DNA of 64,000 nucleotides from an uncultured Bacteroidota bacterium (GTDB lineage: Bacteria > Bacteroidota > Bacteroidia > 2-12-FULL-35-15): the NCBI GenBank assembly GCA_903926385.1, contig CAIYIS010000033.1, positions 1-64,000 of the forward strand, given 5' to 3'. Below are positions 8,639-49,541 of the stretch, piece after piece. The translations under genes were made by a program, and so were the position numbers. Under the pieces are notes generated by a model that had not been told where the DNA came from, made no database searches, and saw only the letters and a program-made list of their open reading frames with translations. Each line of letters starts with the position of its first letter. Positions within the stretch are counted from its first letter, which is position 1.

Positions 8639-8827
8639 GTTTTAAACCTAGCCCGTAAGGTTTTAAATGTCTCGAGCGTAGTTTTAAACGTGGAGTTTGT
8701 AGTTTTAAATGTCGCCCGTGTAGTTTAAAATGTCTCGCGTGTAGTTTAAAATGTCGAGGTCGAAGTTTAAAATGTCGAGGTCGAAGTTTAAAACGTGGAG
8801 CGTGTAGTTTTAAATGTCATAAAAACT
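8639..8827. repeat. 21-nt periodic intergenic array A (9 units)
   Basis: Nine units start at 8639, 8660, 8681, 8702, 8723, 8744, 8765, 8786 and 8807, each exactly 21 nt apart. Units begin with GTTTTAAA or GTTTAAAA; positions 9-11 are mostly TGT or CGT, positions 12-18 vary most, and most units end in GTA or GAA. Unit 1 instead carries CCTAGCCCGTAAG and matches array B's type with two differences. There are no unique spacers. The array lies 22 nt beyond the terminator of the pyruvate:ferredoxin oxidoreductase gene. Function unknown. Confidence 0.9.
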
Positions 8828-8910: not shown

Positions 8911-11900
8911 TTACAGCGATTTGAGAGCCATCAATCGATCCCAACGTTTGCTTACACCTTTTTCAGCTTGTTCAAGCAGCAGAGCAGCATGTTCCGGCCC
9001 TGTGCGTACAAGAGTACTGAAACGGGTTTCGTTGTACAAGAAATCTTTCAACGGCAACGTAGCTTCTTTACTATCGAGCGAAAAACGTTCGCCTTTTGCT
9101 TTAAGCGGATTGTATCTAAACAATGGCCAGTAACCCGATTTTACAGCATTAACCTGATGTTCGGCTCCCTGAGCCATATCGTAACCATGCGCGATGCAAT
9201 GGCTGTAAGCTATTACGATAGAAGTGCCCGGAAATGCCTCGGCTTCTTGTATCGTTCGGATAGCATGCACATCATTCGCCCCCATTGCCACTTGGGCCAC
9301 ATAAGCCGAGCCGTGAGCAATGGCTTGCAGTGCAAGGTCTTTTTTACCGTTTTCTTTTCCATTAACCGAAAACTTGGCACTAGCTGCTATAGGAGTAGAT
9401 TTAGATTTTTGTCCTCCTGTATTGGAATATACTTCTGTGTCGAGCACAATAATGTTTACATTTTCACCAGTAGAAAGTACATGGTCTAATCCTCCAAAAC
9501 CAATATCATAAGCCCATCCATCACCTCCCACTATCCAGTGCGATTTCTTTACTAAGTGGTCGGCAATGATGGTAAGTTGGTTCATTTCGAAATTATTAAT
9601 GGCAGCAATGCGTTTGCGAAGCTCTTTCACATTTTCGCGTTGTTTGCGAATTCCAGCTTCGTTGCTTTGGTCGGTATTTATTAAATCGTTGACCAAACTT
9701 TCTCCAATAATATCTTTGTTTCGGTCGAGAAGGGTAAATGCAATTTCAATCTTTTTATCAAAAGCCATTTTTATACCCAATCCAAACTCAGCATTATCTT
9801 CGAACAATGAATTAGCCCATGAAGGCCCGAATCCATCATCGTTAGTAGTCCAAGGAGTAGTAGGCAAATTACCACTATAAATGGAAGAACAACCGGTGGC
9901 ATTGGCCACTACCATTCTTTCGCCATATAATTGAGAAAGTAATTTCACATAAGGTGTTTCCCCGCAACCTGAACATGCACCCGAAAATTCAAACAATGGT
10001 TGAAGAAACTGAGTTCCTTTAACGGTATTGGTATTGGCGCGAGAACGATCGAGTTCGGGCAGTGATAAGAAGAAATCCCAGTTTTTTATTTCTGTATTTT
10101 TGAGCGGTAACTGGTCTGTCATATTTATTGCCTTGTGATTAGGCTCGGTTTTACTGGTGATAGGACAGTATTCCACACACAAATTACAACCTGTACAATC
10201 TTCAACCGATACCTGAAGTGTGTATGCTTCGTTATCTTTTTCAAATTCTTTACCAATAGGAGCAATTGCTTTGAATGTTTCGGGCGCATTACTCAATTCG
10301 CCTTTGTCGTATACTTTGCAACGAATGGCTGCATGAGGACAAATTAAAAAGCACTTACCGCACTGCGAACATAAATCGGCATCCCATACCGGAACCTTAT
10401 CAGCAATGTTTCTTTTCTCGTATTGTGTGGTTCCTACTGGGTATGTACCATCCATAGGGAAAGCACTCACCGGAAGGTCATCTCCTTCGAACATTAATAT
10501 TTTAGCAAGCACATTTTTTACAAAATCAGGTGAGTTATCTGTAACACCTTTTTCGGTAGCGATGTTTCCTGTTTTAAATGTTGAATAATCGATAAGCACG
10601 AGATTTTCTAAAGTTTTATCAACGGCTTCAAAATTTTTCAATACCACCTTTTCGCCTTTGGCAGCGTATGTTTTTTTGATAGCATCTTTGATTCGTTGAA
10701 TGGCATCTTCTTTAGATAAAATCCCTGCAATGGCAAAGAAGCAGGTCTGCAATATCGTGTTAATGCGAGAACCCATTCCGGTTTCGCGTGCCACTTTAGT
10801 AGCATTGATAACATAAAACTTCAGTTCTTTTTCTATAATTTCTTCCTGAACATGCTGAGGCAACTTGTTCCAGACATCTTTAGAATCGTGAGGAGTATTT
10901 AATAGAAAGGTTGCCCCTTTTTCAGCATCTCTCAAAATATCATATTTATTGATAAAGTTGGATTGATGACAAGCAATGAAATTGGCAGAGTTTATGAGGT
11001 ATGTAGATTGAATAGGATTTTTACCAAAACGAAGATGAGACACCGTTAACGACCCCGACTTCTTGGAGTCGTAAACAAAATACCCTTGAACATAATTATC
11101 TGTAGTATCACCAATAATTTTAATAGAGTTTTTATTAGCACTTACAGTACCATCAGCTCCGAGCCCATAAAACAAACCTCTGAACAAATGTTGTTTTTCA
11201 AGTGAAAATGATTTATCGTAATGCAAACTTTTATGTGTTACATCGTCTTCAATACCCACCGTAAAGTGATTTTTTGGAGTACTTTGTTTTAATTCCTCAA
11301 ACACAGCTTTCACCATAGCTGGAGTAAATTCTTTTGAAGCTAACCCGAAACGACCTGCAACAATGCGAGGTTTATCACCTTGCCATTCTTCAGCTATTAC
11401 ATTCACCACATCCATATATAATGGGTCTCCAATCGAGCCAGGCTCTTTGCATCTGTCGAGGACGGAAATACTTTTCACCGATTTAGGAATGGAATTCACA
11501 AACTCTTTTGCATCTACAGGGCGGAACATACGCACATATAAATATCCAACCTTTTCTCCGTTTTCGTTTAGATAATTTACTGTTTCGTTCACCGCACCCG
11601 AACCCGAACCCATTATAATGATGATTCTTTCAGGAGCCGAATGACCATAATATTCATATAATTTGTAGCTTCTTCCAGTAAGTGCTTCAAACTTCTTCAT
11701 CATGTCCGTAATGATTCCGGGAGTATTTGCATAGTATGTATTAGAAGCTTCTCTGCTTTGGAAAAATACATCTGGGTTTTGTGCAGTCCCTCTTATCGAA
11801 GGGTTTTCGGGCGACATGGAACGTTTGCGGAAAGCAAGAATATCGTTCTCATCAATCATTTTCAAAATAACATCATCCGGAATTACTTCCACTTTAGTTA

Positions 11901-12438
11901 ATTCGTGAGAGGTACGGAATCCGTCAAAAATATTTAGAAAAGGTAAATGAGATTTTAAAGTAGCAGCTTGTGCTATCAACGCCATATCCATTGCCTCCTG
12001 AGAATTGCGGCCAAACAACATGGCCCAGCCTGTCTGACGAACTGACATAACATCAGAATGGTCTCCAAAAATACTCAACGCATGAGTGGCAAGTGTACGA
12101 GCCGCGATGTGAAAAACAGTAGGAGTTAACTCTCCTGCTATTTTGTACATGTTCGGAATCATCAGCAATAATCCCTGAGAACAGGTAAAAGTAGATGACA
12201 ATGCTCCTGCTTGCAACGAACCATGTATGGCTCCTGCTGCACCACCTTCGCTTTGCATTTCCATTACTCTTGGTACTTCACCAAATATGTTTTTTATTTG
12301 CGCAGCCGACCATTCATCGCAGAATTCGCCCATGGCAGATGAAGGCGTTATCGGATAAATGGCGCAAACCTCACTTGTTTTGTAAGCAATGTAAGCTGCC
12401 GCCTCATTGCCATCCATTATTTTAGTTTTACTTTTCAT
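8911..12438 (-). CDS. nifJ: Pyruvate:ferredoxin (flavodoxin) oxidoreductase, single-chain
   Basis: This cytoplasmic enzyme oxidises pyruvate with CoA to acetyl-CoA and CO2 and passes two low-potential electrons to ferredoxin. The 1175-residue chain has the full single-chain domain order: N-terminal TPP-binding pyrimidine domain (YPITPSSAMGE), domain II, the gamma domain, a two-[4Fe-4S] ferredoxin domain at about residues 690-760 (CSQCGKCFLICPHAAIRC and CTGCNLCVEYCP), and a C-terminal TPP domain with GDGWAYDIGFGG and NTGGQKSKSTP. The extra cluster-binding motif CSGCGETPYVK is present too. It is the last gene of the Hcr operon, 12 nt after the hemerythrin-like gene. Benzoyl-CoA reductase needs reduced ferredoxin, so a supply role is likely but inferred. 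General pyruvate metabolism is the alternative. Confidence 0.96.
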   Translation of the reverse strand: MKSKTKIMDGNEAAAYIAYKTSEVCAIYPITPSSAMGEFCDEWSAAQIKNIFGEVPRVMEMQSEGGAAGAIHGSLQAGALSSTFTCSQGLLLMIPNMYKIAGELTPTVFHIAARTLATHALSIFGDHSDVMSVRQTGWAMLFGRNSQEAMDMALIAQAATLKSHLPFLNIFDGFRTSHELTKVEVIPDDVILKMIDENDILAFRKRSMSPENPSIRGTAQNPDVFFQSREASNTYYANTPGIITDMMKKFEALTGRSYKLYEYYGHSAPERIIIIMGSGSGAVNETVNYLNENGEKVGYLYVRMFRPVDAKEFVNSIPKSVKSISVLDRCKEPGSIGDPLYMDVVNVIAEEWQGDKPRIVAGRFGLASKEFTPAMVKAVFEELKQSTPKNHFTVGIEDDVTHKSLHYDKSFSLEKQHLFRGLFYGLGADGTVSANKNSIKIIGDTTDNYVQGYFVYDSKKSGSLTVSHLRFGKNPIQSTYLINSANFIACHQSNFINKYDILRDAEKGATFLLNTPHDSKDVWNKLPQHVQEEIIEKELKFYVINATKVARETGMGSRINTILQTCFFAIAGILSKEDAIQRIKDAIKKTYAAKGEKVVLKNFEAVDKTLENLVLIDYSTFKTGNIATEKGVTDNSPDFVKNVLAKILMFEGDDLPVSAFPMDGTYPVGTTQYEKRNIADKVPVWDADLCSQCGKCFLICPHAAIRCKVYDKGELSNAPETFKAIAPIGKEFEKDNEAYTLQVSVEDCTGCNLCVEYCPITSKTEPNHKAINMTDQLPLKNTEIKNWDFFLSLPELDRSRANTNTVKGTQFLQPLFEFSGACSGCGETPYVKLLSQLYGERMVVANATGCSSIYSGNLPTTPWTTNDDGFGPSWANSLFEDNAEFGLGIKMAFDKKIEIAFTLLDRNKDIIGESLVNDLINTDQSNEAGIRKQRENVKELRKRIAAINNFEMNQLTIIADHLVKKSHWIVGGDGWAYDIGFGGLDHVLSTGENVNIIVLDTEVYSNTGGQKSKSTPIAASAKFSVNGKENGKKDLALQAIAHGSAYVAQVAMGANDVHAIRTIQEAEAFPGTSIVIAYSHCIAHGYDMAQGAEHQVNAVKSGYWPLFRYNPLKAKGERFSLDSKEATLPLKDFLYNETRFSTLVRTGPEHAALLLEQAEKGVSKRWDRLMALKSL

Positions 12439-25579: not shown

Positions 25580-25732
25580 TATTGGTTGTTGTTGTTGCTT
25601 AAAAGGTTCTTTACTTAATTGTAAGGGCCTTTTTTGTTTTTGGACTATCGTTAGTTTTTTTTCAATCTGTTCCTTTGGATTAGCGGAATGTTTTTTAGAG
25701 CCTATCATGATATTTAAAATTGCACCCATTAT

Positions 25733-25942
25733 GTTTTAAACCTCATCCATGAGGTTTTAAAACTAAACCATGAGGTTTTAAACCTAGACCATGAGCTTTT
25801 AAACCTAGACCTTGAAGTTTTAAACCTAAACCGTGAGGTTTTAAACCTAAACCGTGAGGTTTTAAACCTAGACCGTGAGGTTTTAAACCTAGACCGTGAG
25901 GTTTTAAACCTAGACCTTGAAGTTTTAAACCTAAAGTAGGTG
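25733..25942. repeat. 21-nt periodic intergenic array B (10 units)
   Basis: Ten units start at 25733, 25754, 25775, 25796, 25817, 25838, 25859, 25880, 25901 and 25922, always 21 nt apart. The unit begins GTTTTAAACCTA, then GACC or AACC, then an ATGAG, GTGAG or TTGAA ending. Because 21 is a multiple of 3, a minus-strand frame through it stays open and reads as KPHGLGL repeats; this is probably not a gene. The array lies 166 nt beyond the rplP terminator, exactly where rpmC (L29) would be expected. Function unknown. Confidence 0.9.
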
Positions 25943-32817: not shown

Positions 32818-32920
32818 AGATTTCCCCCCCTGTTGGTGTCCTATTTCCTTTAAAATATACAGAAACGATGCTTTGAAGGCGTTTTTTCAACTGTTGGGCT
32901 GAGGTCTCACCTCCAACTTT

Positions 32921-33046
32921 CTTAGAGACTACGACAGCAATCTTAGAGACTACGACAACAATCCTAGAGACTACGACAACAATCTTAGAGACTACGACAG
33001 CAATCTTAGAGACTACGACAGCAATCTTAGAACCATTGTCAGCTTT
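32921..33046. repeat. 21-nt periodic intergenic array C (6 units)
   Basis: Units start at 32921, 32942, 32963, 32984, 33005 and 33026, exactly 21 nt apart. Each begins CTTAGAGACTACGACA (once CCTAGAG...) followed by GCAAT or ACAAT; the last unit is degenerate after CTTAGA. The array lies 254 nt beyond the terminator of rpsJ, inside the break between rpsJ and rplC. The rest of 32818-33297 is AT-rich with short CTTTAAACTT-type repeats and no convincing ORF. Confidence 0.88.
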
Positions 33047-41101: not shown

Positions 41102-41249
41102 TAGTTTAAAGTTGGAAAGCATAAGATAAATGGATGCTTATGATTTGAAGAGATGAAAAAAATTGAAAGTTCTTTTCAGTACAATCAACAATTTTTAAAT
41201 TATTTTTAGAAACATGAGCCAAGTCATAGTTTAGAAGAGAAGCACATTT

Positions 41250-41257
41250 TACATTTG
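41250..41257 (+). promoter_or_regulatory. Predicted -7 box for the 42-residue ORF
   Basis: TACATTTG matches TAnnTTTG. Transcription would start near 41264, giving a leader of about 20 nt before the ATG at 41284. This short leader length is also seen for bioB and the gene at 2303. Confidence 0.5.
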
Positions 41258-41283
41258 TCGCGGATTACTAATACTTGATTTGA

Positions 41284-41412
41284 ATGATTGTTGAATTAAT
41301 TCTAATGCTGGTTGCTTTAATAGCCTTACTTTATAATACCGGGTATACAACGAAATACTCGATATTTAATAAAACTGGTTTAGGATTATATAATATAGTG
41401 AACGTTCTTTAA
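41284..41412 (+). CDS. Small hydrophobic protein (42 residues), likely single-pass membrane peptide
   Basis: An ATG at 41284 opens a 42-codon frame ending in TAA at 41410-41412. The product starts MIVELILMLVALIALLY, an almost uninterrupted transmembrane helix, then a polar tail (NTGYTTKYSIFNKTGLGLYN). The ORF fits exactly between a promoter box (41250-41257) and a strong intrinsic terminator (41423-41457), so it looks like a stand-alone transcription unit of about 190 nt. Small hydrophobic proteins of this type can be membrane-complex regulators or toxins of toxin-antitoxin pairs; no antitoxin is visible. Alternatively the unit makes a non-coding RNA and the ORF is chance. I do not recognise the sequence. 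Confidence 0.5.
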   Translation: MIVELILMLVALIALLYNTGYTTKYSIFNKTGLGLYNIVNVL

Positions 41413-41422
41413 AAATTTATTT

Positions 41423-41457
41423 CCTCGATTGCTGAAAAGCAGTCGGGGATTTTTTTT
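41423..41457 (+). terminator. Intrinsic terminator of the small-ORF unit
   Basis: CCTCGATTGCT (41423-41433) pairs with AGCAGTCGGGG (41438-41448) around a GAAA tetraloop and is followed by eight T residues (41450-41457). The orientation serves a plus-strand transcript. Confidence 0.88.
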
Positions 41458-41534
41458 GACCGCAAAGGAAGGGAAGGGAGTTTTGAATTTTAGAGTTGGA
41501 GATTTTTAGAATTCTAGAATTTTGAGGTGGAAAA

Positions 41535-41786
41535 GTCTTGGATGCGTGTCGAGAAGTCTTGGATGGATGTCGAGAGGTCTTGGATACGTGTCGAGAAGTC
41601 TTGGATGGGTGTCGAGAAGTCTTGGATGGATGTCGAGAGGTCTTGGATGCGTGTCGAGAAGTCTTGGATGGGTGTCGAGAAGTCTTGGATGCGTGTCGAG
41701 AAGTCTTGGATGGGTGTCGAGAAGTCTTGGATGGGTGTCGAGAGGTCTTGGATGCGTGTCGAGAAGTCTTGGATGAGTGTCGAGAG
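41535..41786. repeat. 21-nt periodic intergenic array D (12 units)
   Basis: Twelve units start every 21 nt from 41535 to 41766. The unit is GTCTTGGAT, a variable triplet (positions 10-12: GCG, GGA, ACG, GGG or GAG), then TGTCGAGA and a final A or G. All variation in 252 nt is confined to positions 10-12 and 21. All three forward frames are open through it because 21 is divisible by 3. The array starts 78 nt after the terminator at 41423-41457. Function unknown. Confidence 0.93.
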
Positions 41787-41787
41787 G

Positions 41788-41843
41788 GGAATTTTAGAAT
41801 TTTAGAGGTGAGATTTTTAGAATGAAAGGATTTACGAAATACG
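41788..41843. repeat. Left copy of a 56-bp direct repeat
   Basis: The 56 bp match 42957-43012 with two mismatches in the same orientation. They start GGAATTTTAGAATTTTAGAG and end with TTTACGAAATACG. Together the copies flank the 42038-42952 gene. Short ACGAAATACGAAT-type repeats continue to about 41950; the rest of 41844-42037 shows nothing else. Confidence 0.9.
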
Positions 41844-42037
41844 AATGAAGGTCTTTAAGAAATACGAATAGTAGGAATTTACGAATGAGGGACTTTACGA
41901 AATACGAATGGAACGAATTTACGAAATACGAATAGTACGAATGTACGAATTGAAAAGGAATTAGTAAAACAATAAATAAATAAATAAAAACAAAAACAAA
42001 TAAAGCCGCCTGAGTAAAGTAGGGCGCAAAATGAAAA

Positions 42038-42952
42038 ATGACAGATCTGCAAAGGGCTGATTTGGAAGCCGGAAAAAGGATTAAAAAGTTTAATGATGAT
42101 AATAGTGTTGAATTGGCAACTATTACAGATGATTCGATGGGGCCAGTGATAGTTGGGGTGAGTGATCAGGTGGCGGCTGTGGAGCTGGCCGAGAGTAAAC
42201 AACAGGCTGATGGGGGTGATGTGAGTGGAGCAAAGGAATTGGCTAAGAAAGCAATGGGAAAGGTGATTTATAAGTATGCGGTAAGAGGACAGGTGAAGGC
42301 GGAGATGATTGGTAATTTATTGTTGGCGTCATCGCTGGACCATCCGTTAACTTATATTACTGAGGTGGATGATGTATTGAGTGTGACAAGAGCAAAAGAG
42401 TTGAAACAGATAATGGATACAAATAAAGGTCCGGCAGGAGTGTTGACCAATATAGTGGCGGCTGATGTGACGATAATGACAAATATAATTAAGGGATTTA
42501 CGGATTTGGAGACTTTGCCAACTGATGTGATAAAGGAGAAAAAGTCGGAGGGTACGGATAAGATACAACCGGCTATTGATTTGTTGAATGCTTTTGTGGC
42601 GAGAGAGGGAAAATTGTTGCATAGTTACTGGAGTGGAGGGGCGAATGATGCCTTGGTGGATGAGTTTGATTTGAAATCGCATGCGGTGGTGCTAGGAAAG
42701 AGACATAATATAGTGGAGGTAACGATGGTGAGAGAGGAAGATGGTGGGCCTGTGATAAGAGGAACGTTTACTTGTTTGAAAAATAATAAGGTGAGTGATG
42801 GAGGAGGAACGAATGTATATAAAATAGAAGGGATTCCGCAAGGTGTGCAGCCATTTAAGGCAGAAGCACCCGGTAGAAAAACAGAAAGTTTGGATGTGAT
42901 AGTGAAAAAGGGAACTACTGTGGAGGTGATTGTGAAAATGAGGTTGGCGTAA
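42038..42952 (+). CDS. Protein of unknown function inside a direct-repeat cassette
   Basis: The 304-residue protein has no signal peptide or transmembrane helix. The first 200 residues are probably alpha-helical (LAESKQQADGGD, KELAKKAMGKVIYKYAVRGQ). The last 90 look beta-rich and may form a carboxypeptidase-regulatory/CnaB-like sandwich (VIRGTFTCLKNNK, KIEGIPQGVQPFKAEAPG, then DVIVKKGTTVEVIVKM). Codon choice favours G-rich synonyms (GTG, GGA, TTG), unlike the neighbours, which suggests transfer or a recent arrival. The gene is bounded by 56-bp direct repeats. I do not recognise the family. Confidence 0.75.
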   Translation: MTDLQRADLEAGKRIKKFNDDNSVELATITDDSMGPVIVGVSDQVAAVELAESKQQADGGDVSGAKELAKKAMGKVIYKYAVRGQVKAEMIGNLLLASSLDHPLTYITEVDDVLSVTRAKELKQIMDTNKGPAGVLTNIVAADVTIMTNIIKGFTDLETLPTDVIKEKKSEGTDKIQPAIDLLNAFVAREGKLLHSYWSGGANDALVDEFDLKSHAVVLGKRHNIVEVTMVREEDGGPVIRGTFTCLKNNKVSDGGGTNVYKIEGIPQGVQPFKAEAPGRKTESLDVIVKKGTTVEVIVKMRLA

Positions 42953-42956
42953 GAAA

Positions 42957-43012
42957 GGAATTTTAGAATTTTAGAGTTGAGATTTTTAGAATGAAAGGCT
43001 TTACGAAATACG
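42957..43012. repeat. Right copy of the 56-bp direct repeat
   Basis: This copy starts 4 nt after the stop of the gene at 42038-42952. It differs from the left copy at two of 56 positions. It is followed directly by a REP-like palindrome that is absent from the left copy. Confidence 0.9.
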
Positions 43013-43037
43013 CCCTTCGACCATGCTCAGGGTGACA
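43013..43037. repeat. REP-like palindrome inserted next to the right direct repeat
   Basis: The 25 bp beginning CCCTTCGACCATGCTCAGGG form a small imperfect palindrome. Related CTTCGAC...GCTCAGGGTGACA elements are widespread in bacterial intergenic DNA, including Bacteroidota, so it is probably a dispersed REP-type element. Both sides continue with sequence like that at the left direct repeat. Confidence 0.65.
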
Positions 43038-43137
43038 GTAGGAATTTACGAACGAGAGTCTTTACGAAATACGAATTTTACGAATGTACGAATGAGGAGG
43101 AAATGATGAGTTGAGGTAGGAATTAAAGGATTGAAAT

Positions 43138-43325: not shown

Positions 43326-46300
43326 TTGATTACTGCTGTGGCTATATGCTTGCTGGCAGTGTTTGCGCCTAGAGGGGCGATGGGGCAAACTACCTGTGCA
43401 ACCCGCACCATGCTGGGCGCACACGATACGGTGAAAGCACCGTTTACACTCTCCGATACCACCTTGTGGTACGACATCGATGCGAGTGATTCTACGGTGT
43501 TTATTGCCGTACAAGGGGACACCACCAACGCTCCGATATTTCGATTGGAACTTTATTCGGGTAGTTGTTCGGGTCTTTCAGGAATTATTGGAGATACCGC
43601 AATGGGCTTTGTCAACTTTACAGCACGGGGCTTATCTATTGGTACGCATTATAAGTTAAAACTAACAATTGATAACCCTGCTGCCTTGTCGGTAAATGAT
43701 GTTGGTTTGACTGTAAAATCAATGGGAGGCGGTGGCGGAGGGCTACATTCGCTATTTCTTTGCAACAAAGAGTTAAACGGACCGCTGTATCAAACCATCT
43801 GGAGTTCGGGAGAAAATAATTGGGGGCAATTAGGTCAATGCATCCCTATCCCATGTGCTCCTGGGCAAGTGACAAGTACAAATGCTAACTGGACAGGCAG
43901 ACGATTCAGCGCAGTTGCGGCAGGTGCATTTTTTTCATTGGCGCTCGATGACCAAGGACATGTGTGGTCGTGGGGACGAAATGATAACGGGGAGTTGGGA
44001 ATAGGTTTTTCTGATGCTTCTCCACACTGTAATCCGGAAAGAGTGCTAGGTGTAGGGGGTAGTGGGTTATTGTCAAATATCGTAGCAATTTCTGCCGGTA
44101 ATGAATTTGCACTTGCATTAGATAATAATGGGACTGTTTATGGTTGGGGATTTAATCGTTTAGCTCCTTTCAATAATTTTTGGTTAATGGGAAATTCTGC
44201 AACTTATAGTGCAGATTTTTATACTTCACCAGTGGTAATTACAATTCCAACCACCAACCAAATTATTGCTATTTCGGCAGGTGGAAGATATGCGCTGGCA
44301 ATGGATAATTTTGCAAATGCTACTTCAGGACATGTTTGGGCATGGGGAGATAATAATGATGGAGAATACGGCAATAATCAAATAGGAAATACAAGCTTAA
44401 ATCATGTACCACAGGAAATGCAAGGCGTTTGGCCAAATACAGGTGTAGGTACTGCTGTTGTTGCATTAGCCATATCAGCTAGCGGAGGTTTTATCTTTGG
44501 CGGACAATCAATGGTAATTTATGATGATAATGGGTTGCATAGATTAGCAATTTGCGGTGCAAATAATGCCGGACAATTAGGAAATGGCACTACTACTAAT
44601 TCATTATTTCTTCAGGCTCCAAGTTTTGCAGCTAATAATGCTGCACCAGGTATTGGCGCAATAGGTGGGGCACGTGAGCATTCGCTGGCAGTAGATAACA
44701 ATGGTATTGTATGGGGAGCAGGGAGAAATGAGGATGGAGATTTGACAAATCTATTTAATAATTATACTCCTCTTGTTACTACTTTTACACAACTACCCGG
44801 TTTAACCAACATAAGGGCTGTAACCGGAGGGAATTTTAAAACAATGGCTTACCGAGATGATGGAGTTATATTCTCATTTGGTCAAAATTTTACAGGTGAA
44901 TTAGGAATAGGATATTGCAATGCATCTCCTATTATTCCTCCTTTTCCTTTTTATTCAGTTCCTGTTGCAACAGAGGTGGTGCTTTGTCCTTTACATGTAA
45001 ATGATACAACAATATGCAATGGCCAAACTCTCACACTTACTCTTGCAAATGGCAACCTTTCCTATCCCGATTATGGATTAGCTACAGGTACAGTAATGCC
45101 GTGGCCTACTTTGCCGCCCCCTGACCATTATAATTGGATGCCAAATACAAGTATTACACCCCTCAATGATTACTGGAGCCAGGTAACGGTATCTCCAACC
45201 ACTACCACCATTTACACAGTAAGCATGGGAAACCAAACAACTACTTTTACGGTAACAGTTATCGCTAATACAATTGCAAATGCAGGCCCAAATCAAATAG
45301 TATGCGGAACAACTGCTACAATGGCCGGAAATGTTGCAACAGTTGGAACAGGGTTATGGACATTGGTTAGTGGAAGTGGAACAATCACTACTCCAAGTTC
45401 ACCAACCACAACAATAACTGGATTAGGTGCCGGAGCCAATGTGTTTCAATGGACAATCACGAATCCGAATCCTTTTTGCTCTCCTACCAGTTCACAAGTA
45501 ACCATTACCGTTGCATCTCCTCCAACTGCATCCTATGCGGGACTTGCTCAAACAGTGTGCGGCACTATTGCAACACTTGCCGGAAATACCCCAGTTGCAG
45601 GAACAGGACTTTGGACATTAGTTAGCGGAACGGGTACAATTACAAATCCTGCATTGGCTGCATCAGGTATTACAGGATTGGGAGCAGGAGCCAATGTGTT
45701 TCAATGGACAATATCCAATCCACCATGCTTGGCATCCACATCGCAGGTAACTATTAACAGCGTAATACCGCCAACAGTTGCAGCTGCAGGACCAAATCAA
45801 ACAGTGTGTGGAACAACAGCTACAATGGGGGCTAATACACCTCTGGTAGGAACAGGTTTATGGACAGTGGTAAGTGGAAGTGGAACAATTACAACACCAA
45901 CTTCTGAAATTACAACAATAACAGGATTGGGAGTTGGTACTAATGTGTTTCAATGGGAAATAGATAATTTACCATGTCCTCCATCTACCTCGCAGGTTAC
46001 GATAACAGGAGTGGCAAACCCTGATGTTTCGGTAGCAGGACCAAATCAAACGGTTTGTGGAACAACAGCTACAATGGGGGCTAATACACCAAGTGTTGGA
46101 ACAGGATTATGGACAGTGGTAAGTGGAAGTGGTACAATTACAACACCCACTTCGGCAACTACAACAATTACAGGATTGGGAGTTGGTCCTAATTTGTTTC
46201 AGTGGACGATAAGCAATTTACCATGTCCTTCGACTAATTCGCAGGTGACGATAATAGGAGCAACCGTACCCACAGCATCAGCGGGAGGAAGCTCTACCAT

Positions 46301-49300
46301 TTGTTATCCAGGTTCTGCAACAGTTAGCGGTGCAAGTGCATCAGGCGGTACTATATTATGGACATCAATCGGAGCAGGTACACTTAGTGGAGTAAACACA
46401 TTAGCACCAATTTATACTGCGGATGCAACGGATGTTGGAACTACAGTAATATTAACCATGACAGTTTCCAATTCCCCTTGTCCTACAGCATCTGCCACTT
46501 ATTCTATAACTGTAAATGCTACACCTGCAGCATCAGCTGGTGGAAGTGCAACAATTTGTTTTCCGGGTTCTGCAACTGTTAGCGGTGCAAGTGCATCAGG
46601 CGGTACTATATTATGGACATCAAGCGGACCGGGAACTTTCACAGGAACGACAACATTAACACCTACCTATACAGCGGCAGCATCTGATGTTGGAACAACT
46701 GTAACATTAACTATGACTGTTTCTAATCCTCCTTGCACACCTGCAACAGCAACTTTTACAATTGTTGTAACTGCTACCTGTGCTCCTTGCTCTATTTCTG
46801 TTTTTGATTACACTGTATATACAGGTACCACAGTTACCTCAACTGCATTATTCGGAACATCTTTAGTAATTGGCAATTTACCGAACATCATTAACATAAG
46901 TATAGAGGCTGGGGCTACTTTAAAAGTAAATAGTTCGAGCATGCTAACCATTGCCGGATGTAATATAAAGATGGGTACAGGGGCGAAAATAGAATTAAAT
47001 GCAACCGGAACTGGTACATCTGGCGATTTAACATTAACGAAACAAACTCATGTTTATTCATGCGGTAACATGTGGGATGGCATATATGTACCTGCAGGAA
47101 GAAATTTATATATAACTCAGAACACACTGATAGAAGATGCAAAACACGCAGTGGTTTCGCAGAGTGGTGGTAATTTTAAAATTGAAACATCCATTTTTAA
47201 TCTGAACTACACAGGGGTCGAAGTTCAGTCCTTTGGCAGTGCGCACCCTGGAAGTATTGTTAATACAATTTTCACCAGCAGGGATTTGGATGCCATACTT
47301 TGGGCAAATGTATTACAAAATCCTACTGTTAATGATTTGAAAAACATTACCCCAATAGGTGGTTTTAATGCTGGGACGATGAATAATTACTGTTCGGGAG
47401 GTGTGTTTGGAGTTAGGGTAACAAATGTAAATTCTATTAATATTGGCGATGGTTCTAATACCACTTTAGGATCAAATATTTTTGATAATCTAGGGGATGG
47501 GATTTTACTGGTTAAGACAAATTCAAAAATAATGAACAATACATTTCAGAATATTGTAAAGGTTGTGCCTTGCACAGGACCACTGCCTAATGCTATTCCT
47601 AATAATCTTATTTTCAATAATGGTATTTTTGCATTTGGTGACATAGCTGGACAATTTCAACTTCAGGTAGGAAATACTGGAGGATTTAATTCTAACACCT
47701 TTCAGGATGTTTATTCAGCGATAAATGTTTATTATTATCAGGAAAACATTATGATTGATAATAAAATTGATAATACATCTACCTGTAACTCTCCTTACAC
47801 AACTGGAATAGGTAGAAGGGGGATACAAATTTTCCGTCCGGCTAAAGGCAATGGAATTAGAATAATAGGAAACGGCATTAATAATTGTGCTTACGGGGTT
47901 TATATCGACCGTACACATTATAACAGTGTTCAAACTCATGGAGTGGATGTGGATGGAAATACTATTTCCGCAACAACCGGAACAACTAATCCGGGTTATT
48001 GCCTCAAAGCCATTTACATTGGCGATATATTAAACACGCCAAACGCAATGACCGGGATGGTGAATGTAATGCATAACTATATAGAACAGGTGGATGGCGG
48101 CATTTTTGCGATTAATGTGATGAACAATTTGCAAGTTTATCAAAATCATCACATAGAACTAAGGGGCACTAATGCCGCGGGCGGTGACGGTATTTATGTA
48201 TCTAATTGTATTGGGGCTAAAGTACATTATAATGATAATATTTTTGCTAATCCCCCAAACTTGAATACAAATTATAAGGGAATAGAAGTATTTACAAGCA
48301 ATTACATAAGTGTAACCTGCAACAAAACCTTTGATGTAGGCGACCATCTTGTATTTAACGGGGCAAGCCAAAAAGCACATATCAGAAATAACACAATGAC
48401 ACACGGAACTCGTGGTTTTGTACTCCTCAATAGTGGCTTAGTGGGTCCTCAGGGAACTCCTAACCAGCCAGTAGGGTTATGGTGGCAAAGTGCAACTCCG
48501 GATTTCCCGGGCGGGCAAACGTTTAACCAGGTAGTTACAAGTTTAGATAATGCTAATATAACATCATTTATGTATGTTCATAATTTTGGTGCGCCAAGCA
48601 GTAGTTATACTGGTATTCCGACTAATAATGCAGGAACAGGACCTCCTCCAACTTTTTATTACTTACCTGGTGCCTCCCTTGGTTTACGCCCAATGTTTTC
48701 ACCAATTACCGACCCATTTGATTGTAGCCTGGGGCCTCTCTTATTTACTCCTCCTCCTTTTGGAGAAGAAAATTTAAAAGCGTTAGTTACCGATACTACC
48801 AGCTATACCCAATACGACAGCGCACAAAAGTACATGGATAAAATAACTGCTTATACAGTGCTTGAAAGTACCAATGGAGTATCGCCAGATAGCAGTGCCG
48901 ATTTGCAGCAATTTTATGACAGCACTAAAGTAGCATCGCTGGGTCAACTCAAAGCAGTGGAAAAAGAGATGGCAGACAGTAATTTTGTTCAGGCGAATAC
49001 ACGGAATAACAATGTGTATGTAAATAACACAATAGAAAGCAATCAAAAAGAAATTAACCGGTTGTATTTACTGTTGCTAACCGATACGGCTTATACCTAT
49101 TCATCTGCCGATTCGGAAGCCATTTATAATATTGCTGTTCAATGCCCGTCCGAAGGAGGCGCAGGAGTGTGGGGAGCACGCACGCTTTATTATAGTATAT
49201 TGGATGATTATATCGAATTTGAGGCAGACTGTGAGGCACAAGGCAAGAGCCTTTTATATCATAACGGCAGCAAACCTATAACAGATGTTTCTGATAATTT

Positions 49301-49541
49301 CAAGGTTTACCCGAACCCAAACAACGGAAGTATGACGCTTGAATATCATTTGGCTGAAAATGAAAATGCCTTGGTTAGTATATATGATTTGGTAGGTAGA
49401 ATAATTAAAAGCTATCCTATCAACTCAAAAAGCAATTCAATTTTTATTAACGAAAACGAATTGAATGCAGGAACTTATTATTACACCATTCAATTAAATG
49501 ATAAAGTAATCAAAACTGAAAAACTGGTAATAATAAAATAA
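43326..49541 (+). CDS. Giant secreted protein: RCC1 repeats, Ig-like modules, beta-helix, T9SS type A sorting domain
   Basis: From a TTG at 43326 the frame gives 2071 residues. The N-terminus (ITAVAICLLAVFAPRGAMGQ) is a signal peptide without the usual basic start. The frame is open 11 codons further up, and an ATA at 43308 would add KKTKQ and make a perfect signal peptide, so the true start is uncertain. Domains: RCC1-type propeller repeats (about 155-525; WSSGENNWGQLGQ, VWSWGRNDNGELG), four 83-residue Ig-like modules with VCGTTATM and LPCP (about 648-978), two related modules with GGSxTICxPGSATVSGA (about 982-1150), a parallel beta-helix-like region rich in N and G (about 1155-1790), and a type A sorting domain (VYPNPNNGSMTLEY; final KTEKLVIIK). 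A surface adhesin or exopolymer-binding role is plausible. No enzyme motif was recognised. Confidence 0.88.
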   Translation: MITAVAICLLAVFAPRGAMGQTTCATRTMLGAHDTVKAPFTLSDTTLWYDIDASDSTVFIAVQGDTTNAPIFRLELYSGSCSGLSGIIGDTAMGFVNFTARGLSIGTHYKLKLTIDNPAALSVNDVGLTVKSMGGGGGGLHSLFLCNKELNGPLYQTIWSSGENNWGQLGQCIPIPCAPGQVTSTNANWTGRRFSAVAAGAFFSLALDDQGHVWSWGRNDNGELGIGFSDASPHCNPERVLGVGGSGLLSNIVAISAGNEFALALDNNGTVYGWGFNRLAPFNNFWLMGNSATYSADFYTSPVVITIPTTNQIIAISAGGRYALAMDNFANATSGHVWAWGDNNDGEYGNNQIGNTSLNHVPQEMQGVWPNTGVGTAVVALAISASGGFIFGGQSMVIYDDNGLHRLAICGANNAGQLGNGTTTNSLFLQAPSFAANNAAPGIGAIGGAREHSLAVDNNGIVWGAGRNEDGDLTNLFNNYTPLVTTFTQLPGLTNIRAVTGGNFKTMAYRDDGVIFSFGQNFTGELGIGYCNASPIIPPFPFYSVPVATEVVLCPLHVNDTTICNGQTLTLTLANGNLSYPDYGLATGTVMPWPTLPPPDHYNWMPNTSITPLNDYWSQVTVSPTTTTIYTVSMGNQTTTFTVTVIANTIANAGPNQIVCGTTATMAGNVATVGTGLWTLVSGSGTITTPSSPTTTITGLGAGANVFQWTITNPNPFCSPTSSQVTITVASPPTASYAGLAQTVCGTIATLAGNTPVAGTGLWTLVSGTGTITNPALAASGITGLGAGANVFQWTISNPPCLASTSQVTINSVIPPTVAAAGPNQTVCGTTATMGANTPLVGTGLWTVVSGSGTITTPTSEITTITGLGVGTNVFQWEIDNLPCPPSTSQVTITGVANPDVSVAGPNQTVCGTTATMGANTPSVGTGLWTVVSGSGTITTPTSATTTITGLGVGPNLFQWTISNLPCPSTNSQVTIIGATVPTASAGGSSTICYPGSATVSGASASGGTILWTSIGAGTLSGVNTLAPIYTADATDVGTTVILTMTVSNSPCPTASATYSITVNATPAASAGGSATICFPGSATVSGASASGGTILWTSSGPGTFTGTTTLTPTYTAAASDVGTTVTLTMTVSNPPCTPATATFTIVVTATCAPCSISVFDYTVYTGTTVTSTALFGTSLVIGNLPNIINISIEAGATLKVNSSSMLTIAGCNIKMGTGAKIELNATGTGTSGDLTLTKQTHVYSCGNMWDGIYVPAGRNLYITQNTLIEDAKHAVVSQSGGNFKIETSIFNLNYTGVEVQSFGSAHPGSIVNTIFTSRDLDAILWANVLQNPTVNDLKNITPIGGFNAGTMNNYCSGGVFGVRVTNVNSINIGDGSNTTLGSNIFDNLGDGILLVKTNSKIMNNTFQNIVKVVPCTGPLPNAIPNNLIFNNGIFAFGDIAGQFQLQVGNTGGFNSNTFQDVYSAINVYYYQENIMIDNKIDNTSTCNSPYTTGIGRRGIQIFRPAKGNGIRIIGNGINNCAYGVYIDRTHYNSVQTHGVDVDGNTISATTGTTNPGYCLKAIYIGDILNTPNAMTGMVNVMHNYIEQVDGGIFAINVMNNLQVYQNHHIELRGTNAAGGDGIYVSNCIGAKVHYNDNIFANPPNLNTNYKGIEVFTSNYISVTCNKTFDVGDHLVFNGASQKAHIRNNTMTHGTRGFVLLNSGLVGPQGTPNQPVGLWWQSATPDFPGGQTFNQVVTSLDNANITSFMYVHNFGAPSSSYTGIPTNNAGTGPPPTFYYLPGASLGLRPMFSPITDPFDCSLGPLLFTPPPFGEENLKALVTDTTSYTQYDSAQKYMDKITAYTVLESTNGVSPDSSADLQQFYDSTKVASLGQLKAVEKEMADSNFVQANTRNNNVYVNNTIESNQKEINRLYLLLLTDTAYTYSSADSEAIYNIAVQCPSEGGAGVWGARTLYYSILDDYIEFEADCEAQGKSLLYHNGSKPITDVSDNFKVYPNPNNGSMTLEYHLAENENALVSIYDLVGRIIKSYPINSKSNSIFINENELNAGTYYYTIQLNDKVIKTEKLVIIK

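Follow-up and report, generated by a model that had tools for sequence, protein, structure and literature searches.

Tandem 21- and 42-bp arrays lie 5' of three uncharacterised gene families in Bacteroidia, with a period that follows the family

We found that a 12-unit tandem array (array D) of an uncultured Bacteroidota bacterium (GTDB lineage Bacteria; Bacteroidota; Bacteroidia; 2-12-FULL-35-15) is one of many non-coding arrays of this genome with units of 21 or 42 bp, and that such arrays stand just 5' of the genes of three uncharacterised protein families. The association between arrays and genes is solid, and the period of the array follows the family of the protein encoded next to it. 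Together, the arrays and their adjacent genes point to an undescribed DNA-protein system. In what follows, the window is the whole stretch of DNA that was analysed, that is, the 64,000 nucleotides at positions 1 to 64,000 of contig CAIYIS010000033.1 (assembly GCA_903926385.1, forward strand).

Results

Array D and its surroundings

The features of the array D region are as follows.

41197..41480, forward strand: 5' flank of array D, with a second copy next to the paralogous array on contig C82 of this genome (97% identity over 286 bp; query 41175-41480, match 23-306)
41231..41257, forward strand: promoter-like TTAG-N-TACATTTG of the Bacteroidota type, a consensus match only
41423..41457, forward strand: terminator-like hairpin and T run, just 5' of array D; the C82 copy has one too
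41535..41786, forward strand: array D, 12 direct 21-bp units of GTCTTGGATNNNTGTCGAGAR, sequence read directly
41787..41960, forward strand: degenerate simple repeats (GAATTTTAGA, TACGAAATACGAAT) between array D and the gene
42038..42952, forward strand: gene of array D, encoding a 304-aa family A1 protein, with its start codon 252 bp after the array

Array D is made of head-to-tail 21-mers of the form GTCTTGGAT-NNN-TGTCGAGA-R. The triplet at positions 10-12 is GCG or GGG in four units each, GGA in two, and ACG and GAG in one each (n=12), and position 21 is A in eight units and G in four. The remaining 17 columns are invariant. Direct reading therefore bears out what the first-pass annotation had described, 12 units with variation confined to positions 10-12 and 21. 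With a Tandem Repeats Finder score of 422, array D is not a product of chance. The same annotation had judged the pacing of this variation to be unlike neutral decay, a claim that fails for array D taken alone, since the permutation test for clustering of variable columns gave p=0.12; for the C82 copy it gave p=0.33. Across 54 arrays with period 21, the mean lag-1 autocorrelation of variable columns was 0.164 vs -0.051 after permutation (standard error 0.032), indicating that a conserved core with a variable segment is a general tendency. Clustering was also seen in the 42-bp arrays (0.191 vs -0.022 permuted). Multi-base mutation or conversion tracts could be an alternative cause of the clustered variable columns.

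The invariant stretches on either side of the triplet had been read as two half-sites for a dimeric binding protein. This did not hold up: the best dyad score of the D unit is 3, vs 2.7 in shuffled sequence (p=0.6). As a class, 21-bp units showed no dyad enrichment either (A1, 3.26 vs 3.15 shuffled; A2, 3.59 vs 3.17). An early impression of dyad or dimer half-sites in 21-bp units had come from a few arrays and was ruled out against shuffles. The half-sites of array D have no dyad relation, so that its unit is not a usual dimer site. Other identities were also rejected. Array D is not a CRISPR array, since the 21-bp units are contiguous without spacers and the adjoining gene has no Cas match, nor is it a TAACTGA repeat, the D unit being GTCTTGGATNNNTGTCGAGAR. 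Translation of the arrays was rejected because open frames are near expectation in A2 and A3 (slightly above it in A1) and because 41-bp arrays exist. No known RNA family was found in the window at the gathering threshold.

The promoter-like site at 41231-41257 is the nearest one to array D; it is followed by the terminator-like hairpin at 41423-41457 and then by the array. On this arrangement, the site possibly serves a short transcript separate from array D. The segment 41197-41480 (284 bp) holds the promoter-like site, about 190 nt without a long open reading frame and the terminator-like hairpin, and is duplicated on C82; a small RNA gene is one possibility for it. Partial matches to C46 and C45 were also seen for the first ~54 bp of the query 41175-41480. 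Degenerate simple repeats (GAATTTTAGAATTTTAGAG, TACGAAATACGAAT) lie on both sides of array D and its gene, at 41460-41534, 41787-41960 and 42953-43093. Further downstream, at 43326-49541, the window contains an open reading frame of 2071 aa with a 249-bp coding tandem repeat (tandem 45672-46260), and large secreted-looking proteins are encoded downstream of some other family genes as well (L031, L041, L207, L210).

The 304-aa protein itself has no Pfam family. Its family A1 relatives have a transthyretin/carboxypeptidase-regulatory-like C-terminal domain, some of them matching CarboxypepD_reg, and secondary structure suggests a helical N-terminal region followed by a beta C-terminal domain for the family. 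A single-sequence AlphaFold prediction of the protein had a pLDDT of 34, a very low confidence that gave no usable model.

A recent duplicate of array D

The D pattern occurs 12 times in the window. On contig C82, it was found in four exact occurrences and in 12 when one mismatch was allowed, and it is absent, even with one mismatch, from the 35 other genomes of the genus. Viral contigs gave six single chance matches to the D unit and no array. Seventeen units, again of 21 bp, make up the C82 array (L027:228-583, reverse strand), in which columns 5 and 6 (TG, CG, CC) are variable too and column 16 differs once. The first-pass annotation had named variable positions throughout the unit, in related strains, as what would speak against its reading; this same-genome copy goes part of the way there. 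The 97% identity of the flanks indicates that the D and C82 arrays are recent duplicates. Divergence in their units and in the order of these already far exceeds that in the flanks, in an assembly fragmented into 85 contigs, so that unit number and order may be affected.

Arrays across the genome and the genus

Four arrays of 21-bp period are present in the window: array D and the three listed here.

8639..8818, forward strand: array A, 21-bp period, orphan, at the 3' end of 8911-12438
25726..25933, forward strand: array B, 21-bp period, orphan, between convergent genes
32920..33031, forward strand: array C, 21-bp period, orphan, between convergent genes

No family gene adjoins arrays A, B and C. 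Over the genome, we counted 50 non-coding arrays of the 21/42 type in 0.80 Mb sampled, a number biased upward because family genes or contig starts had guided the choice of some stretches. In nine stretches picked without regard to family genes, 180 kb in total, there were nine arrays, which extrapolates to about 200 arrays genome-wide. Every array has its own unit sequence and many are orphans; unit lengths of 21 and 42 dominate among the non-coding arrays. Families A1-A3 are present in a subset of the genus, with many paralogues per genome. Genus members without these families had no non-coding 21/42-type array in 0.40 Mb of random stretches, and other members carrying them had 11 arrays in 0.31 Mb, part of which was chosen at family genes. 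Because the genomes compared are fragmented assemblies with several arrays close to the ends of contigs, unit counts may contain errors, and array density is biased.

Arrays stand 5' of three orphan families

The three families with an array just 5' of the gene are A1 (~305 aa), which includes the window gene 42038-42952, A2 (~208 aa), one distant relative of which has an FN3 domain above the Pfam cut-off, and A3 (~320 aa), which has no Pfam match. A fourth small group, A4 (two members used), has 21-bp arrays too. We detected no clear homology among A1, A2 and A3, and no DNA-binding domain was recognised in the array-linked proteins with Pfam, NCBIfam and PDB profiles. In other genomes, homologues of the window gene are immediately preceded by a 21-bp array of unrelated sequence.

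Within the genus, an array was present at most 600 bp 5' of 60 of the 76 family genes, vs 18 of 232 background genes from array-bearing genomes (Fisher 1e-32); related loci are not fully independent, which makes the association p-values optimistic, but the effect is still large. On the 3' side, an array was found for only one of these 76 genes and for none of 20 A2-family loci outside the genus. A detectable array is missing in about 20% of the family genes of the genus and in more of those outside. The median gap between the array end and the start codon is 168 bp in A1, 89 bp in A2 and 55 bp in A3; the 252-bp gap of array D exceeds these medians.

The period follows the family

In the genus, 38 genes of A1 and A2 have direct 21/22-bp arrays vs two with 41-44-bp arrays only, and in A3 the respective numbers are 0 and 24 (coupling p=1e-15). 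The coupling was also observed outside the genus, among homologues from other families of class Bacteroidia, where the ratio of 41-44-bp to direct arrays is 14:0 in A3 and 3:25 in A1 and A2 together (p=1.3e-8). Fundamental periods are nearly all 21, 22, 41-44, 66, 84 or 105 bp, which we infer to be close to whole numbers of helical turns. Two variants were noted beside A2-like genes. In family f8, arrays upstream of such genes (L241, L252) have GC-rich units of 22 or 44 bp, some with a clear inverted repeat (TTCTGTTACCCAACAGAA). Upstream of another one (L249, genome G166, family f15), a perfect 7-bp repeat, CCCAGAA, lies beside a degenerate 21-bp array, which suggests that arrays can also carry one-third-unit periods.

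Symmetric 42-bp units and nearly free unit sequence

The consensus of the 42-bp unit is two-fold symmetric over the whole unit, with 12.3 complementary pairs vs 10.0 in shuffled sequence in the genus. Outside the genus, the values are 12.6 vs 9.9 (Wilcoxon 1e-4) and 14 of 14 units exceed the shuffled mean; nine orphan 42-bp arrays have the same symmetry (p=0.02). The 41-42-bp units of A3 are inverted pairs of 21-bp half-units. RNA hairpins were rejected as the cause of this symmetry. Folding of the 42-bp units is alike on both strands (z -3.2 sense, z -3.4 antisense), and among the non-Watson-Crick dyad pairs, G.T and A.C stand at 357:342. This absence of strand bias in folding and mismatches indicates a symmetry of the DNA rather than RNA hairpins.

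Similarity between units hardly rises with protein identity in A1 and A2 and rises only weakly in A3, as judged by an ungapped comparison that misses similarity across one-base shifts (e.g., L120/L123). This weak tie led us to reject a fixed sequence recognised family-wide. Pairs of proteins with 66-76% identity often have unrelated units of the same period, and some close pairs share most of the unit. The closest homologue of the window protein (L055, 48% protein identity) has a unit that shares TGTCG and TGGATG with the D unit at a different spacing, indicating that the half-site words are loosely kept. Between loci, conservation extends to the 21-bp period and to the position of the array in front of the gene, and not to the sequence. 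Array sequence turns over faster than array period.

Discussion

A helix-phased platform as the leading reading

The reading that we favour, with a confidence that falls a little short of even, is that array D serves at the DNA level as a helix-phased platform of many sites, with a protein assembling at each 21-bp step, in a polar or alternating manner according to the family. The first-pass annotation had already suggested that the unit may bind a protein; a multi-site platform is still the best form of this idea, and its half-sites were given up since the unit contains no dyad. Array D would be the 5' element of a two-part locus consisting of a homogenised tandem array that repeats every ~21 bp (two helical turns) and the gene 42038-42952, and the array would act as DNA. 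Units of a whole number of helical turns place equivalent sites on one face of the duplex, which is how a protein could assemble every 21 bp. In A1 and A2, assembly would be polar, on direct units of 21-22 bp, and in A3 it would be alternating, on 42-bp units formed by inverted pairs of 21-bp half-units. The unit sequence could drift because regular spacing and identity between neighbouring units are what matters, and both would be maintained by duplication and loss of units. The protein encoded next to the array, or else a dedicated factor of the family, would be the likely partner, and the outcome may be control of the expression of the adjacent gene or local DNA organisation. This reading is favoured by the array-gene association, the coupling of period to family, the quantised periods, the strand-neutral symmetry of the 42-bp units, the lack of arrays in sampled genus members without the families and the persistence of the period where unit similarity drops to background. 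Weighing against it are the lack of a recognised DNA-binding domain or usable structural model, the loci in which the array is probably transcribed as leader, the many orphan arrays, the family genes with no detectable array, the lack of clear homology among A1, A2 and A3 and the unusually long gap between array D and its start codon.

Other explanations of the arrays

The array could instead work as RNA, as a transcribed 5' leader that is a multivalent binding site or a structured leader controlling translation or mRNA fate. On the gene strand, about 11 loci have a promoter-like site of the Bacteroidota type at most 100 bp 5' of the array, vs two on the reverse strand, and there the array is probably transcribed as a leader. 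In A2 and A3, the 55-90 bp that separate the array from the start codon are AT-rich and mostly promoter-free, which is consistent with this explanation too. Other loci, however, have promoter-like sites between array and gene, and orphan arrays stand at gene 3' ends. The 21-nt arrays are unstructured, and both the helical-turn quantisation of the periods and the lack of a sense-strand bias in folding or wobble pairs argue against an RNA leader. From the placement of promoter-like sites, the array would often, not always, be part of the leader, and we consider it unlikely, although worth serious attention, that the array acts in this form.

Arrays made by slippage between genes could also be a passive by-product, in which, near genes, only units of whole helical turns survive, as the gain or loss of such units leaves promoter phasing unchanged. 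This is in accordance with the fast turnover of unit sequence and order between array D and its C82 copy, with the existence of orphan arrays and with the constant-size classes of 20-21 and 52 nt of other bacteria (PMC8161180). We hold it to be improbable, because it leaves unexplained the period following the protein family, the symmetry of the 42-bp units, the concentration of arrays 5' of A1-A3 genes and the absence of arrays from the sampled relatives that lack the families.

Finally, array and gene could form an iteron-like or selfish cassette, in which the product would bind the array and so govern the maintenance, copy number or movement of the cassette. This might account for the presence of direct repeats about two turns long in front of a gene, for unit sequences that differ from locus to locus, for joint duplication of array and 5' flank on C82 and for many paralogues per genome, but it is very improbable given that the proteins have no replication, recombination or transposition domain, that two A2-type queries found no plasmid homologue, that viral contigs gave no A2 relative and that no sign of mobility was seen.

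Relation to known repeats

Plasmid iterons differ in sequence between replicons. With their Rep proteins, they are direct repeats near a gene that are bound by an oligomerising protein (reviewed in PMC4980987). The arrays described here resemble them as direct repeats 5' of a gene. They differ in that the adjacent proteins have no Rep-type or winged-helix domain (no Rep-type match with Pfam, NCBIfam or PDB profiles) and carry an FN3 or transthyretin-like C-terminal domain instead, and in that there is no replicon but dozens of chromosomal copies. Heptamer TAACTGA direct repeats are intergenic, lie close to start codons and are present in some Bacteroidetes too (MacGregor 2015, PMC4679880). These are one fixed 7-mer with no downstream gene pattern, whereas our arrays combine free sequence with a fixed period and a gene family.

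The closest class, known and unexplained, comprises bacterial tandem repeats whose unit size is constant (20-21 and 52 nt) and whose sequence varies (Subirana and Messeguer, PMC8161180). They are non-coding, have a fixed unit size and unrelated sequences, and abound in certain species, their relatives having none; the authors equated 20-21 nt with two helical turns and suggested nucleoid proteins. The arrays of this genome belong to this class, which they match in constant unit size, unrelated non-coding sequences and species-specific distribution. Unlike the repeats of that study, they have a period tied to protein families and include a 42-bp class whose units pair two inverted 21-bp halves. 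That study reports no connection with a family of downstream genes, and 'upstream' or 'intergenic' are not mentioned. In the open-access papers searched, we found no gene-linked 21/42-bp system in Bacteroidetes.

Significance

Array D may be one case of a Bacteroidia-wide gene-array system, a possibility that we put forward tentatively. In it, members of several orphan families would each assemble on a locus-specific, helix-phased array of their own, recognised by its period and not by a fixed sequence, with polar assembly on direct 21-bp units and alternating assembly on 42-bp inverted pairs. Both inside and outside the genus, knowing which orphan family is encoded next to an array predicts its period, two or four helical turns and direct or inverted, which makes the orphan protein a candidate partner. 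If true, such a system would explain at least some of the bacterial repeats that vary in sequence and not in size. Confirmation would make it a case of DNA recognition by regular geometry instead of a motif, at dozens of paralogous loci in one genome.
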